DNA of 64,000 nt from Betaproteobacteria bacterium. GTDB lineage: Bacteria; Pseudomonadota; Gammaproteobacteria; Burkholderiales; WYBJ01. Both the position numbers and the translations under genes were made by a program. Below are positions 31,762 through 38,166 of the stretch, piece by piece; the stretch's first letter is position 1, and every line of letters starts with the position of its first letter. The stretch covers positions 7,269-71,268 of the forward strand of contig WHTS01000001.1 in the NCBI GenBank assembly GCA_009377585.1, in the 5' to 3' direction. The notes below the pieces were generated by a model. The model did not search any database. It was given only the letters and a program-made list of their open reading frames with translations, and was not told where the DNA came from.

Positions 31762-33375
31762 TCAGAACTCCGAGCGTTTCCGCCGGTCCGGCCTCTCGCG
31801 CCGCCTGCCGGCCATGCGTTTCCTGTCGCCTTCCGTTCGTCGTTCGCCGTGGCGGCGATCCTCGCCGCTGCGACGGTCGGTGAAGGTCACGTCGTGTCTC
31901 GCCCTCGTCGCCGCCAGCCACCGAACCCCTTCTTGATCGATGTAGTAGCAATCCGAGAAGTCGATGGTCAGGTCGCGGGTGCGGGCGACCGCGCTGTGGA
32001 AAGTCGATTCGACAACGGGCAGGGAACCGTAATAGAGATTGCCGCGGAGCTTCAGAACGTTGCCGCGCAGGCTGATGTTGGGATGCGCCTGTGCCCACTT
32101 GGAATATGCAATGGCGAGAACGGATCCCACGATCACTGCGCCGAACAGGTCGAGCAACAGCACCGATAGAAAAGACGCCATGAACACCACCGTTTCACGG
32201 CGATCCTTGAAGTGGGGTTTGATGTCCTCCCAGTTGATCATGTTCGCCCCGAGCAGCATGATGATCGCGGCCATGGTCGGCATGGGGATGATTGCAATCA
32301 GCTGGGCAAGAAACAATACGAGGAGCAACAGCCACAGCGCCGAGCTGGCAATGGCGATACGGCTATGAATCCCGAGTCTGTGCACCAACCACATGCGATT
32401 GAATGACGCGCACGTGGGCAGCGACGACAGGAATGGAAGCAGGCAGTTCGATACGGCGTCTGAAAAGATCGCCTTGCGGCTGTCGGTGTAACCGCCGACT
32501 TTGCGATTCATGCGGCGCATTGCCGCGACCGTCTGGAACAGTCCCAACAGCGCGAGCGTGACGGCCCCGGGCACGATCGCAATGACATCCGGCATGGCCT
32601 CCTGGCTGAACAGCGGCAGCGAGGGAGACACGAAGCCGATCGACGACAGATTGCCGATCTGTTCGATGAGTGTGTTGTCCAGACCCAGGGTGGCGGTCAG
32701 GTACTCCGAATACAGGGTACCCGCCGCAATGCCGAACAGAATCGCCCAATTGCGCAACCGCGCGAACTGCTGCACGATCACGCAGGTGATGAGGGTGATC
32801 ATCCCCACCTGGATGGCGTGCATGTTGCCGATCTCCAGCACCGCGAGAAGCGACTGCCATGCGATCCAGAGGGGCCATTCCACTTCCGTATTGAGCGGCA
32901 GCCCACCGAAGGTAGTCAGGGACTTGAAGATCAGAAACAGACCGATGCCGCAGATCATGCCGTTGATGACCGGCTCGCTTATCAGGTCGAGCATCCTTCC
33001 CAGTGGCCGCACCAGATAGAACGCCAGTTGGATCAGGCCAGCCATGAGTCCGAGCGTCAACGCATAGCCCATGTACTCGGCGCCGAAGGGAGGCGCAAGC
33101 GGCAACAGGGTGATGCCGATCGTGGCGGACATCGCGGTGTTGGGACCGCCATGGAAAACCCGCGACGGATTGAGCAGAGTGCAGAACAGAACGCCCCAGA
33201 TGGCGGCGTATATCCCGAAATGGGGGGGAACCCCGGCCAACGTGACCGAGAATGCCACAGCCTGGGGCAAGGTCACCAGCGCGAGGGTCAGGCCCACCAC
33301 CAGATTGCCCTGTAATTGCGGCCAATGCTGGGCAACGACGGCCTTGTCTTTCAGTGCTAGCGCGAAAGGTCTCAT
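31762..33375 (-). CDS. SulP family inorganic anion transporter with STAS domain
   Basis: A 537 aa inner-membrane transporter. GLTLALVTLPQAVAFS (about residues 28-43) and FGIYAAIWG are the SulP N-terminal signature. About 12-14 helices follow, then a cytoplasmic STAS domain (about 430-505, containing LTIDFSDCYYIDQEGVRWLA). The tail is remarkably basic, with repeated DRR/ERR motifs (TDRRSGEDRRHGERR and more to the C-terminus). SulP proteins carry sulfate, bicarbonate, molybdate or other oxyanions or dicarboxylates. It is the last gene of a five-gene leftward operon and its ATG follows the stop of the diheme cytochrome gene with no gap. In this context a sulfur oxyanion is the best guess. Confidence 0.93.
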   Translation of the reverse strand: MRPFALALKDKAVVAQHWPQLQGNLVVGLTLALVTLPQAVAFSVTLAGVPPHFGIYAAIWGVLFCTLLNPSRVFHGGPNTAMSATIGITLLPLAPPFGAEYMGYALTLGLMAGLIQLAFYLVRPLGRMLDLISEPVINGMICGIGLFLIFKSLTTFGGLPLNTEVEWPLWIAWQSLLAVLEIGNMHAIQVGMITLITCVIVQQFARLRNWAILFGIAAGTLYSEYLTATLGLDNTLIEQIGNLSSIGFVSPSLPLFSQEAMPDVIAIVPGAVTLALLGLFQTVAAMRRMNRKVGGYTDSRKAIFSDAVSNCLLPFLSSLPTCASFNRMWLVHRLGIHSRIAIASSALWLLLLVLFLAQLIAIIPMPTMAAIIMLLGANMINWEDIKPHFKDRRETVVFMASFLSVLLLDLFGAVIVGSVLAIAYSKWAQAHPNISLRGNVLKLRGNLYYGSLPVVESTFHSAVARTRDLTIDFSDCYYIDQEGVRWLAATRARHDVTFTDRRSGEDRRHGERRTEGDRKRMAGRRRERPDRRKRSEF

Positions 33376-34527
33376 CTATCGCGCTCCGGCAGCCTGCTGC
33401 CCTGGCTGCGCTCCGGCAGCCTGCTGCCCTGGCTGCGCTCCGGCAGCCTGCTGCCCTGGCTGCGGACTCTTCTCTGCCGATTCCGTCAGCTGCATCAGCG
33501 GCGGCAGCACCGTCATCAGAAGCTGGTTGCGCAAAGCGATCAGCGGTCCTTGGCGATCGCCCGCGGGTCTGGGCAGATTGCTGATGTAAAAAGCAATATC
33601 CCGGCACTGTTGATTGTCGAGCGTGTTTTCCTGCCCCAATGGCATGTTGCGGCAGATGAAGCCAGGCAGGATGGTCGAGACATAGTAGAAGTAGTTGCGG
33701 GACTGCATATTCCAGGCGTTGGGCCCGGCCAGAGCGGGCGCGACGACGCGGCCCTCTGCCACTACGCCGAATGCCTGGCGGCCATGACACACCTGGCATT
33801 TCTCCTTGTAAAGCGCTTCGCCGCGAACATAGTCGTCGCCTTGCTTGATGGTGGCCGATGCGGCGATCTCGTCGACGCCTTGTTCATCGTAGTGATTGCC
33901 GATCTTGAGATCCAGCGCAGCCGAGAGAAAGCGACTATAGGCGGTGACATCGCGTACGAGGTCATCGGCAATGTTCGGCTTGTATCCATTGGACGAATTG
34001 ATGTAGCACTGCATCTGCCGAAGCTCGTAGGGCAGGAGCAAGCCGGTAAAGCGATCGTACATGTCCGCCATCACCCATGAGGCGCCCAGGCTCAGCGAAC
34101 CCTTCAGCCGGTTGCCGCTGGCATCCTGCTTGTCCCCGATACCTTGATGGCAGTGATCGCAGCTGGTGTGGCTGCCACGGATGAATCGTTTCGAGTTCCA
34201 GCGCTCGGCACCTGCAACGCGCGCGAAGTGCCCTTGCGTGTCGTCGATGATGTTGCAGCCGCGCTGGATCGCACGGACATCGGCCTCACTGTAGCCGCGA
34301 ACCTTGACGGGAGCGCCGGCCTTTGCCAGGACGTACGGCGATTGGTAGTGCTCGCCGGCAGCGAGCCCATAGCGAGCGAGCTTCGCTTCGCAACCGGGTG
34401 TCAGCGCCACCGTGGATTGCCGGAGCTCTTCTCGCTGCTTGTGCTTGTGCGTTGCCAGGACATAGAGACCCCCCATTACAAGAAGCAGAAGGATCACTCG
34501 GGTCAGTTTTCCGGTCGGCGTGGACAT
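33376..34527 (-). CDS. membrane-anchored diheme c-type cytochrome, TsdA/SoxA-like
   Basis: A 383 aa protein with an N-terminal helix (about 9-25) and two heme c sites: CDHCH (residues 123-127) and CQVCH (244-248). In the first domain Cys174, in MQCYINSSNGYKP, occupies the place of the axial cysteine of SoxA and thiosulfate dehydrogenase TsdA (CxxSxNG pattern). In the second domain Met295 in CRNMPLGQ is a likely sixth ligand. This His/Cys plus His/Met pair is the TsdA plan, so oxidation of thiosulfate or a related sulfur compound is plausible. The C-terminus carries three exact QPGQQAAGA copies. It is 3 bp after a monoheme cytochrome gene and directly before SulP. Specific substrate is inference. 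Confidence 0.85.
   Translation of the reverse strand: MSTPTGKLTRVILLLLVMGGLYVLATHKHKQREELRQSTVALTPGCEAKLARYGLAAGEHYQSPYVLAKAGAPVKVRGYSEADVRAIQRGCNIIDDTQGHFARVAGAERWNSKRFIRGSHTSCDHCHQGIGDKQDASGNRLKGSLSLGASWVMADMYDRFTGLLLPYELRQMQCYINSSNGYKPNIADDLVRDVTAYSRFLSAALDLKIGNHYDEQGVDEIAASATIKQGDDYVRGEALYKEKCQVCHGRQAFGVVAEGRVVAPALAGPNAWNMQSRNYFYYVSTILPGFICRNMPLGQENTLDNQQCRDIAFYISNLPRPAGDRQGPLIALRNQLLMTVLPPLMQLTESAEKSPQPGQQAAGAQPGQQAAGAQPGQQAAGAR
33381..33461. repeat. three perfect 27-bp tandem repeats in the cytochrome gene
   Basis: Units at 33381-33407, 33408-33434 and 33435-33461 are identical and in frame. They encode QPGQQAAGA three times at the extreme C-terminus of the diheme cytochrome. Perfect identity at DNA level suggests recent expansion and possible length variation between strains. 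Confidence 0.95.
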
Positions 34528-34530
34528 GAT

Positions 34531-35139
34531 CTAGTGCGTGTTCAATCCAAAACGATCTTCATTCGGGGTAAAGCGCTCCTGCTCCGCTTTCTCGAGTGAG
34601 CCTTCGCTCAATTGAAGGTGATGAGCAACCGCTCGGGCGAGAAGGCGAATGTCGCGGACGGCGGGATCATAGATCGTCGGCACGAATCCATTCATGGAAC
34701 GGGCATAGCAGCGCCTTACGCTGTCTTCGAACGAGATGCGCTTTCCCGTCTTCCGGTCGAGGCGGTCCGAGTTGACGAAGCCGTACGCAAGATCCTCCGC
34801 CGTATGACAGGTGGAACAAGAGTTGGCGGCGTTGCCGGCGGTCTTACGGGTGAAGCGCGATGCGTACTTGTGAGTGAAAAAAACGAGGTTGTAGCCGTTC
34901 TGCACGGCTCTCACGAACTGACCGTCGTTGCCGAAGTGGTCGACGTGATACTCGGTGCGGAACCTTTCCCAGCCGGGCTCGGAGACCACTTCCGAGTGGA
35001 ACACTCGAAACCCGGACGCCAGATGTGCCCAGATCACGAAGCCGGCCATCAAACCGATGGTGACTAGTGTTCTCACTCGTGTCGCGCTTCTGCGCGCCCC
35101 CTGCTTGCTCTCGGCATCCGACGAAGCTGATGAGCTCAT
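34531..35139 (-). CDS. membrane-anchored monoheme c-type cytochrome, SoxA/TsdA-like
   Basis: A 202 aa protein: basic N-terminus, one transmembrane anchor (about 24-43), then a periplasmic domain with a single heme site CSTCH (108-112). Cys144 in RRCYARSMNGFVP matches the CxxSMNG axial-cysteine pattern of SoxA and TsdA, as in the adjacent diheme protein, which suggests that they are related and may work as a heteromeric electron-transfer or catalytic pair. The rest of the mature domain is short (about 150 residues). It starts 12 bp after the PhnD-like gene and ends 3 bp before the diheme cytochrome. Confidence 0.83.
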   Translation of the reverse strand: MSSSASSDAESKQGARRSATRVRTLVTIGLMAGFVIWAHLASGFRVFHSEVVSEPGWERFRTEYHVDHFGNDGQFVRAVQNGYNLVFFTHKYASRFTRKTAGNAANSCSTCHTAEDLAYGFVNSDRLDRKTGKRISFEDSVRRCYARSMNGFVPTIYDPAVRDIRLLARAVAHHLQLSEGSLEKAEQERFTPNEDRFGLNTH

Positions 35140-35151
35140 GCCTGGTCCGAA

Positions 35152-36060
35152 TTATCTATCTTGAATATCGTCTGGACCAAAAACCGCATGCATCATTTTG
35201 CGATGAGGATCATAGTCCTTGTCCGCTGCCTTTTCCAGGCCTGTGGTCCGCGCCGATTTCAACACGTTCTTGCCGGCGTCTGCAGTATCGAGGCTCACGA
35301 GTATCGCCTGAATGGATTCGGCCAGCTTCGTCGGCATTGTGCGTTTCACCGCCCATGGCAGAAAGAGCAGGGGTTCGGTCACCGCCAACGTTACGAGCTC
35401 CTGGGTATTTATGGCGTTCTTCACCACCGGCAGATCGATCAGAATATCGCCGCCGCCCGCGGCATCCGCCTGCTTGCTATAAAGCGCGAGCAACGCGTTC
35501 GGAGGATTCACGGCGAACTCCGACTTGAAATCGTCTTCGTCCAACCCAGCCTGCATCAACAGGAACCGCGGCGCGACATAGCTCATCATCGCGTCCTTGC
35601 CGCCTCCGAAAATGATGGTGCGGCCGCGTAGCTGGGACAGATTGGTAATGCCGCTGTCCTTGCGCACGAAAAGCGCTCCCGCGACCGCGCTTCTGCCGAA
35701 CTCCTGGCTGTGGGCGATGACTCTATATAAGTGCGCCGAACGGGCGTAGTGATTCTGATTGAAGTGCACGATGTCGTACCGGCGCTCCATCAGCTCCTTC
35801 CAGAACGAATCGAAGTCCTTGGAAGTGACCAATACGACCTTGCGACCGAGCCGCTCGCTCAGATAGTTCGATAGCGGCGTGTACATCGTGGTGGTTTCGG
35901 TGGCTTTGTACCGCGGAAAGATGCCCAAAACGATAGGCTCTTCCGCGGCATGCGCAGCCGGCGCCACTGCGGCCATGGCGATCAACCCAAACAAGGCAGC
36001 CCAGAGGAGCCAATTCTTGCGATTCAACGAGCGAGAAAATTCAAGTCCCATTGGCATCAT
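35152..36060 (-). CDS. PhnD-like periplasmic phosphonate/oxyanion-binding protein
   Basis: A 302 aa exported protein with a signal peptide ending AHAAEEP (about residue 39). It matches the phosphate/phosphite/phosphonate binding family: LGIFPRYKATETTTMYTPLS at the start of the mature part, LSNYLSERLGRKVVLVTSKDF, YDIVHFNQNHYARSAH and RGRTIIFGGGKDAMMSYVAP. No ABC permease or ATPase is adjacent. Instead it lies 30 bp downstream of a membrane GGDEF-EAL gene, so it more likely acts as a ligand-sensing partner for that protein's periplasmic domain than as a transport component. The ligand may be an oxyanion other than phosphonate. Confidence 0.88.
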   Translation of the reverse strand: MMPMGLEFSRSLNRKNWLLWAALFGLIAMAAVAPAAHAAEEPIVLGIFPRYKATETTTMYTPLSNYLSERLGRKVVLVTSKDFDSFWKELMERRYDIVHFNQNHYARSAHLYRVIAHSQEFGRSAVAGALFVRKDSGITNLSQLRGRTIIFGGGKDAMMSYVAPRFLLMQAGLDEDDFKSEFAVNPPNALLALYSKQADAAGGGDILIDLPVVKNAINTQELVTLAVTEPLLFLPWAVKRTMPTKLAESIQAILVSLDTADAGKNVLKSARTTGLEKAADKDYDPHRKMMHAVFGPDDIQDR

Positions 36061-36090
36061 CCATAAGTAGCGAGTTGCACGACCAGTTCG

Positions 36091-38166
36091 TCAGGCCGAA
36101 CTGCCGATCCGGCGCGGTTTGTTGCGGGTCGCAGAAAGTCGAAGCGATTCGGAGCCAGCTTGCAGGTTACTCAAATAGGTCATGTAGGCTTCCTCGCCCA
36201 TGGGTCTGGCAAGGAGATAGCCTTGAGCAAGGTCGCAGCCTTGAATCGTCAAGAAACCGAGCTGCTGAAGATTTTCCACGCCTTCGGCGACCACTTTGAG
36301 ATCGAGTCCTTTGGCCATGGCCAGTATTGCCTTGACCAACAGGACGTCTTCCGCATTGTTCGGCAGGCCGGCGACGAAGCTTCGATCGATCTTCAACATA
36401 TCGAAGCGGAAGCGTTTCAAGTAACTGAGCGACGAGTAGCCGGTGCCAAAGTCATCCAGGGACAGCGTCACGCCGACTGCCCTCAGGCTGCTCAGCTCCT
36501 CGGCGACATGATGATGGTCATCCAGAAGAACGCTCTCGGTGATTTCCAGTTCGATTGCGTGCGGCGGAATCCCGTAAAGCGAGATCAGTTCAGAGAGCCG
36601 CTGGGAAATGCGCTTTCTGAATTGAATGCGCGAGATATTGATTGCCAGGAAACCTGGTTCGATCCCGCTGCTGCGCCATGCCGACCAACTGCGGCAGGCC
36701 TGTTCGAGCACCCAGTCGCCGATGCCGACGATCTGACCGGTAGCCTCGGCCAGAGGAATGAACTCGACCGGGCTGATGGCCCCTTTTTCGGGGTGGTTCC
36801 AGCGCAACAGCACTTCGGCGCCGCGATGAACCTGGGCGGCCGCATCGAAGATCGGCTGAAAATGCAGCGTCAGCTGGCCGGACTCTATCGCCACGTTCAG
36901 GTCCTGCTCCATCTGCATGCGATCGCGCAGACGGGTATTCATTTCCTCCGTGAAGAAAATGGCGGAGCCTTGTCCCATGGCTTTCGCCTGGTACATGGCA
37001 TTGTCAGCGTTCGCCATGAGCTTCACCAGACCGTTGCCGTTGTCGGGAAAGATCGCGATACCGATGCTGCAACGCGCCACCACTTTGCGCCCGCCCAGCA
37101 TCTGCGGCTCCGATATGGCCCGGATCAGGCGCTCGGCGATTTCCTCTACCTGCACTTCGTTGTCGATATCGGGTGCGAGAACCAGGAATTCGTCTCCGCC
37201 GAGCCGAGCTACCGTGTCAGCATCTCTCAAGATGGCGCGCACCCGGTTCCCCGTGGAAACCAGCAGTTCATCGCCCACGGCATGGCCGAGCGAATCGTTG
37301 ACGCTTTTGAAGTCATCGAGATCGATGAAGAACAAAGCGAACCGCTGACGACTGCGCTTCGATCGGTGGATAGCCTGATCGAGTCGATCCAGCGCCATCA
37401 TCCGATTGGGAAGGCCGGTCAAGGTATCGAAGTTGGCCTGACGATACAATTTGGCCTGTTCCTGCCGAACTTCTTCCGCCATGGCGTTGAATGCCTTCCC
37501 GAGCATTCCGAATTCGTCCATGGATTTGACTTCGACCAGAGTGTGCTGACCTCGGCCGACTTTCTCGGATGCGGCAATCAGCGCTTTGATCGGATCCAGA
37601 ACCTTCAGGCGAAACACGATGTGGATCGCCGCGCTGAGAAACAGAACGAGGGCGGTCCACATCAGTAGTTGTATCGTCAATTGCCGACGAAATTCGTCGT
37701 GCAATGATTGTTTGCTGATGCCGACCAGAAAGCGTCCTAGCACTACGTCGTTGTGGCTGATCGGAAATTCGAGCCGGATCAGTCCAGCCTGACGGTCGAG
37801 CTCCTGCAGCAATTTCGGTATGTCGTTCGACTTCGCCGCCTTCAAGCGCCGTTTGATCAACGCATCGGAATCGTCGATATAGGAACTGAGCGGGACTCCC
37901 TTGGGGCTCATGATCACGCCATAAACCACGTCTTGCTGCGAGGACATCTGGCGCGTGTAGTCATTGAGTAGCAGAAGATCGAAGCCCAATATCGCATCCG
38001 GGCTGACTAGCGAAATCAGGCGCCCGAGGGCACGTCCGCGCTCGAGTAGTTGCTTTTCGTGAAAACGCGTCGACGAATGCAGGTAATAGAGCGTATTCGC
38101 TGCCATGGTGGCCGCCACTATGGTGAGCACCGTGAGAGTGAATTTCGCGCCCAGGCCGAGCCGCAT
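36091..38166 (-). CDS. membrane-bound GGDEF-EAL (c-di-GMP) signalling protein
   Basis: A 691 aa protein and the first gene of the operon. Two helices (about 9-29 and 165-185) enclose a periplasmic sensor of about 135 residues, followed by a HAMP-like linker (to about 240). The GGDEF domain has RLGGDEF (321-327) intact and an inhibitory RxxD site (RDAD, 314-317) five residues upstream. The EAL domain has EVL (451-453) in place of EAL, keeping the metal-binding glutamate, with NISRIQF, EITESVLL, DDFGTGYSSL (571-580), KIDRSFV and AEGVE all present. Both diguanylate cyclase and phosphodiesterase activity are therefore possible. The periplasmic domain could read the PhnD-like protein encoded next. 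Confidence 0.93.
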   Translation of the reverse strand: MRLGLGAKFTLTVLTIVAATMAANTLYYLHSSTRFHEKQLLERGRALGRLISLVSPDAILGFDLLLLNDYTRQMSSQQDVVYGVIMSPKGVPLSSYIDDSDALIKRRLKAAKSNDIPKLLQELDRQAGLIRLEFPISHNDVVLGRFLVGISKQSLHDEFRRQLTIQLLMWTALVLFLSAAIHIVFRLKVLDPIKALIAASEKVGRGQHTLVEVKSMDEFGMLGKAFNAMAEEVRQEQAKLYRQANFDTLTGLPNRMMALDRLDQAIHRSKRSRQRFALFFIDLDDFKSVNDSLGHAVGDELLVSTGNRVRAILRDADTVARLGGDEFLVLAPDIDNEVQVEEIAERLIRAISEPQMLGGRKVVARCSIGIAIFPDNGNGLVKLMANADNAMYQAKAMGQGSAIFFTEEMNTRLRDRMQMEQDLNVAIESGQLTLHFQPIFDAAAQVHRGAEVLLRWNHPEKGAISPVEFIPLAEATGQIVGIGDWVLEQACRSWSAWRSSGIEPGFLAINISRIQFRKRISQRLSELISLYGIPPHAIELEITESVLLDDHHHVAEELSSLRAVGVTLSLDDFGTGYSSLSYLKRFRFDMLKIDRSFVAGLPNNAEDVLLVKAILAMAKGLDLKVVAEGVENLQQLGFLTIQGCDLAQGYLLARPMGEEAYMTYLSNLQAGSESLRLSATRNKPRRIGSSA

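Follow-up and report, generated by a model that had tools for sequence, protein, structure and literature searches.

A conserved operon of two cytochromes, a SulP transporter, and a candidate c-di-GMP sensor pair in a betaproteobacterial genome

A five-gene operon is present at positions 31,762–38,166 of a 64,000-nucleotide window (the whole stretch of DNA analysed) from a Betaproteobacteria bacterium of the order Burkholderiales (assembly GCA_009377585.1, contig WHTS01000001.1). The operon is a real, conserved unit made of two joined modules: a core of two cytochromes (cyt1 and cyt2) and a SulP anion transporter, and a sensor pair of a PhnD-like solute-binding protein (SBP) and a GGDEF-EAL receptor of the cyclic di-GMP (c-di-GMP) type. 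We give an even chance to its encoding a sulfur-oxyanion redox system that is anchored in the membrane, faces the periplasm, and has a sensor of its own; the chemistry would most probably be that of thiosulfate or tetrathionate. No description of this gene set was found in the open-access literature searched, including a search on the combination.

Operon layout and conservation

The five leftward genes are separated by gaps of 30, 12, 3, and 0 bp. These coordinates and spacings, first read from the sequence in a first-pass annotation, match the open reading frames (ORFs). The features are as follows.

36091–38166, minus strand: GGDEF-EAL receptor, 691 amino acids (aa), with an N-terminal transmembrane segment, a PAS/Cache-like periplasmic domain at about residues 50–155, and HAMP (188–235), GGDEF (244–399), and EAL (421–655) domains by Pfam
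35152–36060, minus strand: PhnD-like periplasmic SBP, 302 aa (PF12974, Phosphonate-bd, 165.4 bits against a cut-off of 27)
34531–35139, minus strand: cyt1, 202 aa, single heme, with an apparent N-terminal anchor, CxxCH at 108–112 and a distal Cys144, identified by motifs and a predicted TsdA/SoxA catalytic-domain fold
33376–34527, minus strand: cyt2, 383 aa, diheme and TsdA-like by alignment to TsdA (PDB 4wqc), with an apparent N-terminal anchor, heme 1 at CxxCH 123–127 with Cys174, and heme 2 at CxxCH 244–248 with Met295
31762–33375, minus strand: SulP/SLC26-type anion transporter, 537 aa, with a basic Arg-rich tail (PF00916, Sulfate_transp, 156.7 bits against a cut-off of 23.2)
33381–33464, no strand assigned: 27-bp tandem repeat, 3.1 identical copies, within the 3′ end of cyt2

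A promoter and terminator scan of the operon gave no signal beyond shuffled background, and the case for a single transcript therefore rests on spacing and synteny. A scan of the remaining four genes of the operon and of five genes in its flanks detected no ATP-binding cassette (ABC) family, in agreement with the description of the PhnD-like protein as one without an ABC transporter.

Matches to cyt1 were found in 24 of 300 genomes of the order. Twelve genomes, the host included, carry close orthologs (identity of at least 57%); the other 12 matches are weak (E 1e-6 to 1e-3), fall on distant TsdA-like proteins, and were not counted as orthologs. All 12 genomes with a close ortholog carry the five-gene set. 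The 11 other than the host have it in identical order; in two of them the contig ends within the GGDEF-EAL gene. cyt1 is rare in a wider sample of the phylum, found at E 1e-20 in 1 of 299 genomes, the host alone.

A pattern scan for cyt2, using one genome per species, recovered 37 loci; part of this set comes from assemblies that also supplied another set of loci in the analysis, and the two counts are not independent. Hosts include Aromatoleum toluvorans, A. toluclasticum, A. toluolicum, A. diolicum, Azoarcus sp. Aa7, three Marinobacterium species, Motiliproteus sediminis, and beta- and gammaproteobacterial metagenome-assembled genomes (MAGs). SulP follows cyt2 in 37/37 loci, and cyt1 precedes it in 35/37, the contigs of the other two ending there. 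Both sensor genes are present, whole or cut, in 28 loci, and three contigs are cut too early to judge. Six gammaproteobacterial loci (L113, L114, L115, L118, L119, and L122) hold the core only, with neither sensor gene despite at least 2 kb of upstream sequence. One sensor gene without the other was found in none of the cyt2 loci that can be judged. The first-pass annotation had made its proposal depend above all on the five families being kept together: they are, across beta- and gammaproteobacteria, but the set is not indivisible, since these six loci have the three-gene core without the sensor.

The GGDEF-EAL gene precedes the SBP gene in 18 loci and follows it in 10. In the cyt2 tree, each of the two sensor orders and the core-only group is set off from the rest by a supported branch (96/89, 95/87, and 99/97). 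The idea that each gene order recruited the sensor pair separately was set aside, as the SBP tree needs one origin only; the sensor-domain tree has long branches and does not decide the matter. Carriage as phage or plasmid cargo was likewise rejected. Eleven pattern matches in viral contigs include no relative, and the 40 cyt2 plasmid records are all distant (<60% identity), none covering 80% of the query.

The cytochromes

cyt2 belongs to Pfam family Cytochrom_C and matches the solved TsdA (PDB 4wqc) at E 2.6e-18. Excerpts of PMC4423706 name Arg119, Ser127, Arg109, and the Cys heme ligand as TsdA active-site residues. Across 38 aligned cyt2 rows, the Cys ligand (C174, equal to TsdA Cys123) and the Arg119 equivalent (R170) are kept in 38/38 and the Ser127 equivalent (S178) in 37/38, with one Ala. 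The heme-1 CxxCH (C123/C126/H127) is kept in 37 rows, the remaining row not reaching there. The heme-2 CxxCH (244–248) and M295 are kept in 38/38, and M295 aligns with the TsdA Met, which confirms the His/Met-type second heme predicted for one of the cytochromes. The counterpart of Arg109 is less certain: by spacing it would be F160; the adjacent R159 is Arg in 32 and Gln in 6 of the 38 rows. R277 is invariant and could stand for TsdA Arg224, where the alignment is gapped.

Four further cysteines of cyt2 (C46, C91, C292, and C308) are invariant wherever a row reaches. C46 and C91 lie in an N-terminal extension outside the TsdA-aligned stretch, and C292 and C308 lack a Cys counterpart in TsdA; we suppose that the four form disulfides. 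An N-terminal hydrophobic segment is over threshold in 36/38 cyt2 and 32/36 cyt1 rows, and both cytochromes therefore look membrane-anchored. The 27-bp repeat encodes C-terminal PGQQAAGAQ units of cyt2 and is absent from 14 other cyt2 proteins examined; the closest of the orthologs compared, from L069, ends in PAPAQHAAGAR in their place. The repeat is no part of the proposed cyt2 function.

Both cytochromes had been called SoxA/TsdA-like. This stands for cyt2 by clear sequence similarity, but no sequence match of cyt1 is convincing, and its assignment comes from the predicted fold. Its score against PF21342 (SoxA-TsdA) is sub-threshold (15.7 bits, cut-off 27), and in sequence searches SoxA appeared at E 0.015–0.017, behind an unrelated protein. 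Because the PDB sequence search put an unrelated WD-repeat protein first (E 0.0044) and SoxA second (E 0.015), the predicted structure (mean predicted local distance difference test score [pLDDT] 87.8) was used. Foldseek ranks 1–11 are TsdBA, TsdA, and SoxA, with no match at E ≤0.001 (best 5.7e-3). VIA-align gave Z 12.9 and a root-mean-square deviation of 2.7 over 117 aa to TsdA 4wq8, a Z that unrelated helical proteins can come close to, as the tool itself notes. It gave Z 8.4 to SoxA 1h31 and at most 4.1 to rows outside the TsdA/SoxA family. This gap in Z to the next family, together with the shared CxxCH and Cys, is the basis for the TsdA/SoxA catalytic-domain fold predicted for cyt1. VIA-align reports aligned ranges, not residue pairs.

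CxxCH and Cys144 are invariant in 36/36 cyt1 rows (L115 was left out of the alignment). The CxxCH and downstream Cys noted earlier in both cytochromes are thus present, with the Cys invariant across aligned orthologs. The placement of these cysteines is compatible with heme ligation, by sequence alignment with TsdA for cyt2 and by the fold match to the Cys-ligated TsdA domain for cyt1. TsdA and SoxA share an invariant Arg four positions ahead of the Cys. The window cyt1 has Ser there; across the 36 rows this position is Arg in 27, Ser in 5, His in 2, and Lys in 2. The TsdA Ser is also not kept, so cyt1 might serve as a partner in electron transfer or binding and not as a second enzyme.

SulP and TsdA-like genes elsewhere

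The STAS region of SulP scores below both cut-offs (PF13466, 25.2 of 29.2 bits; PF01740, 21.3 of 22.6 bits). It is followed by a very basic C-terminal tail (DRRSGEDRRHGERR...RRKRSEF) at about 31765–31886 of the window.

The pairing of SulP with TsdA-like genes extends beyond the five-gene operon. Among the matches listed, SulP lies within the fetched flank in 16 of 37 distant TsdA-like loci (L021–L031 and L043–L068; L032 was dropped for having no cytochrome match), and a looser E adds one weak match (L056). The count was 0 of 55 in control loci of similar size fetched for other queries (L001–L008, L136–L166, and L168–L183); control L002 is the window's own SBP locus, with a flank that stops short of SulP.

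Neighbour families were tested in a few of the distant TsdA-like/SulP regions, and the others were viewed by eye. L087 has SoxB-like proteins (TIGR04486, 172 and 204 bits, below the 550 cut-off). L208 has a SoxB-superfamily protein, DsrE, and Sulf_transp, and L207 has Sulf_transp and DUF6691. No sulfur family was found beside the pair in L084 and L085. In L208, L209, and L087, which represent one family of the order, tandem TsdA-like cytochromes and SulP stand amid SoxB-superfamily, LolA-like, DsrE, and Sulf_transp genes in what looks like a sulfur cluster; family tests there covered L087 and L208. The core in L119 and the TsdA-like/SulP pair in L198 are flanked by PhnD-like SBPs (PF12974) of types other than that of the operon. 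The operon SBP profile, run against 24 core or distant loci, gave a weak match in two.

The sensor module

The GGDEF, RxxD inhibitory-site, and EAL catalytic residues are invariant in 25/25 receptor rows (partial or cut L089, L093, L094, and L111 are left out). By sequence, c-di-GMP synthesis and breakdown would therefore both be possible. In a model of receptor residues 1–240 (pLDDT 76), the periplasmic part looks like a helix-flanked PAS/Cache-type domain. This domain was found in 17 of 274 genomes of the class, the host included. At the 16 other loci, an SBP of the same subfamily lies directly beside the domain's gene with a strong match in 11, a weak match in two, and none in three. Of ten receptors analysed with Pfam, nine from these loci and one from L196, seven carry kinase ATPase domains and three carry GGDEF-EAL. 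SBP and receptor are a module with an exchangeable output domain, and its recurrence with swapped outputs is an argument for SBP action via the receptor's periplasmic domain. No cyt1 or cyt2 relative was found within about 1.5 kb at the 16 outside loci. Two SBP genes stand in tandem inside the operon in L090 (3572–5526) and L112 (8018–9951), with the copies in different parts of the SBP tree; perhaps two ligands feed one receptor there.

Proposed function and alternatives

We infer sensing, transport, and c-di-GMP output from gene families and linkage. We likewise infer the substrate, the SBP ligand, the contact of SBP and receptor, the direction of transport, and the sign of the c-di-GMP response. 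In the proposed mechanism, the TsdA-type cyt2 would couple two thiosulfate-like molecules, or cleave a tetrathionate-like one, on Cys-ligated heme 1, and electrons would pass through His/Met heme 2. cyt1 would be a one-domain Cys-ligated partner serving electron transfer or a second thiol-handling site. SulP would carry the anionic substrate or product over the inner membrane. The SBP would bind a small ligand in the periplasm, in all likelihood a sulfur oxyanion from this pathway, and would dock on the periplasmic domain of the GGDEF-EAL protein, switching c-di-GMP synthesis or breakdown. Attachment or motility would thereby follow the presence of the compound.

A sulfur oxyanion is favoured because of the sulfur-type neighbours of some distant TsdA-like/SulP pairs and because of the PhnD-like domains of ThsS and TtrS. 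Excerpts of PMC5408782 describe such domains as the sensing domains of ThsS (thiosulfate) and probably of TtrS (tetrathionate), and excerpts of PMC11293645 state that TtrRS controls tsdBA. By this analogy a sulfur ligand for the SBP is reasonable. In 185 genomes, no sequence scored above the cut-off of the NCBIfam TtrS model, and a pocket comparison with sub-threshold TtrS-like proteins was not used as evidence.

Several observations weigh against a sulfur-oxyanion system with its own sensor. The anions moved by SulP transporters are varied, and sulfur specificity does not follow from the family. Several distant TsdA-like/SulP regions, viewed by eye and not family-tested, are without evident sulfur genes. 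A host Sox pathway was considered and dropped: the genome has no SoxB match, and SoxX, SoxY, and SoxZ were not searched for. The fold match of cyt1 has the marginal Foldseek and Z values given above, its Arg position is occupied by Ser, and the six core-only loci have no sensor. Thirteen of 14 wider regions around sensor-domain/SBP relatives are without a CxxCH protein or SulP, so the ligand class need not equal the cytochrome substrate. The exception is L196 (4915–14001), where an SBP and a PAS/HATPase kinase lie near CcmI, a TsdA-like diheme protein, a pentaheme protein, and a partial SoxB-like gene.

The SBP pocket is a further such point. Excerpts of PMC5908839 describe pocket residues shared by PhnD and AioX: two Ser, one His, and two Tyr. 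PhnD and PtxB sequences in the alignment show the Ser/Thr loop and the His, in place of which the operon SBP has A157/M158 and P186 in the profile alignment. These three residues are invariant in 30 SBP rows, with the split L101 left out. A pocket Tyr is kept (Y105, by alignment with PtxB). The 302-aa SBP has no Cys, and an equivalent of the arsenite-binding Cys106 of AioX/ArxX is absent. With the Ser/His residues replaced and no Cys, binding of phosphonate, phosphite, or, in the AioX manner, arsenite is unlikely. AioX-type arsenic-oxyanion sensing was rejected for want of a Cys, and phosphonate or phosphite binding is disfavoured by the pocket residues. Of the sensing scheme in the first-pass annotation, the pairing of SBP and receptor gains support, since it recurs with other outputs; an oxyanion as the ligand is a hypothesis, given the exchange of the PhnD/AioX Ser and His in the pocket.

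These features bear most on a different ligand. The core may handle a sulfur compound while the SBP senses something else, such as an amine, a urea-like compound, or an organic acid, with c-di-GMP merely tuning lifestyle when the respiratory module is used. We consider this unlikely, though a credible competitor. It would account for the SBP–receptor pair occurring without a cytochrome c or SulP nearby, for the missing canonical oxyanion residues, and for the two genomes (L184 and L185) in which the pair by eye adjoins genes like a urea ABC uptake cluster. However, core and sensor pair occur together in 28 loci, PhnD-like domains are used to sense thiosulfate and tetrathionate, and the operon SBPs lie on one side of a branch against 12 outside SBPs (97/99), consistent with a ligand of their own.

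Another possibility concerns the chemistry. The cytochromes may act on sulfite, selenite, tellurite, or an organic thiol or thiosulfonate, with SulP importing the matching anion and the TsdA likeness being mechanistic only. The absence of the TsdA Arg and Ser from cyt1 would fit, as would the cyt2 extension with its invariant C46 and C91 and the extra C292 and C308. Orthologs in Aromatoleum and Azoarcus, which are denitrifying aromatic degraders, point the same way. cyt2 nevertheless keeps TsdA Arg119, Ser127, and the Cys ligand, and sulfur-type gene families surround some distant relatives, and we regard this alternative as distinctly unlikely. Least probable, and very much so, is that SulP and the cytochromes detoxify or export sulfite or thiosulfate that the cell itself produces, and do not make up an oxidase that yields energy; SulP as the last gene at a 0-bp gap and the lack of a SoxB match in the genome would suit it, but the link with a periplasmic sensor points to a signal from outside.

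The sulfur-oxyanion redox system with its own sensor also has a fuller form, held more tentatively: a dedicated sulfur-oxyanion c-di-GMP circuit in which the free SBP would sense thiosulfate, tetrathionate, or a related compound, the GGDEF-EAL protein would be bifunctional, and redox chemistry would be physically coupled to SulP transport in a two-cytochrome membrane complex. We know of no earlier c-di-GMP receptor for an inorganic sulfur compound and no earlier redox-partnered SulP. If true, inorganic sulfur chemistry would be tied directly to a c-di-GMP lifestyle switch, and the TsdA family would gain a transporter partner. Cultured hosts would be available in Aromatoleum, Azoarcus sp. Aa7, Marinobacterium, and Motiliproteus. 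A broader class is also outlined, of SBP-linked receptors with output swapped between c-di-GMP and histidine kinase.

Comparison with known systems

TsdA/TsdBA of Allochromatium vinosum and Marichromatium purpuratum share with cyt2 the two hemes, the Cys-ligated heme 1, the Arg119 and Ser127 equivalents, and the heme-2 Met. Unlike these, cyt2, known here from sequence, has an N-terminal anchor and an extension with two invariant Cys, and its partners are the one-heme Cys-ligated cyt1, SulP, and the sensor. SoxA of SoxAX resembles cyt1 in predicted fold (1h31) and in CxxCH with a distal Cys, whereas the window cyt1 is without the conserved Arg, the operon has no SoxX or SoxB gene, and the genome has no SoxB match.

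ThsS/ThsR and TtrS/TtrR also have a PhnD-like sensing domain linked to thiosulfate or tetrathionate enzymes (excerpts of PMC5408782 and PMC11293645). Theirs is fused to a histidine kinase, whereas here the SBP is free and the output is GGDEF-EAL. AioX, ArxX, and ArrX are free PhnD-like SBPs acting as sensors in regulatory gene clusters (PMC5908839, excerpts); in contrast, the operon SBP has no Cys106 equivalent and a replaced Ser/His pocket, and the operon has no kinase or response regulator. NspS-MbaA of Vibrio cholerae combines a free SBP with a receptor able to make or break c-di-GMP (PMC8967002). As in that type, a free SBP gene is linked here to a GGDEF-EAL gene with a periplasmic domain and both catalytic domains intact. 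NspS-MbaA answers polyamines, whereas the operon SBP belongs to PF12974. We know of no redox and transport genes beside NspS-MbaA.

Further observations in the host and related genomes

The host genome has two full SulP genes and two weaker matches. On its contig 11 (L215 and L216; 64559–65143), a 404-aa ORF has two SoxA-TsdA domain matches. In L198 (3316–6138), a SulP-STAS protein fused to cNMP-binding and rhodanese domains lies downstream of the TsdA-like cytochrome. L199 has a separate cNMP-rhodanese protein, and SulP proteins in L199–L203 are similar in length to the L198 fusion. A small protein with a twin-arginine-like N terminus precedes the TsdA-like/SulP pair in L084 (7852–8595) and L085 (8955–9635); Pfam gave sub-threshold signal matches for the former and nothing for the latter.

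The reading frame is split in two in the SBP of L101 (8835–9803) and the SulP of L118 (11346–12858), by decay or sequencing error. The operon lies on MAG contigs titled Bordetella parapertussis in L093 and L101, titles that may be wrong. In Motiliproteus L116 (2037–6624), the operon is preceded by genes that by eye are formate dehydrogenase subunit-like.

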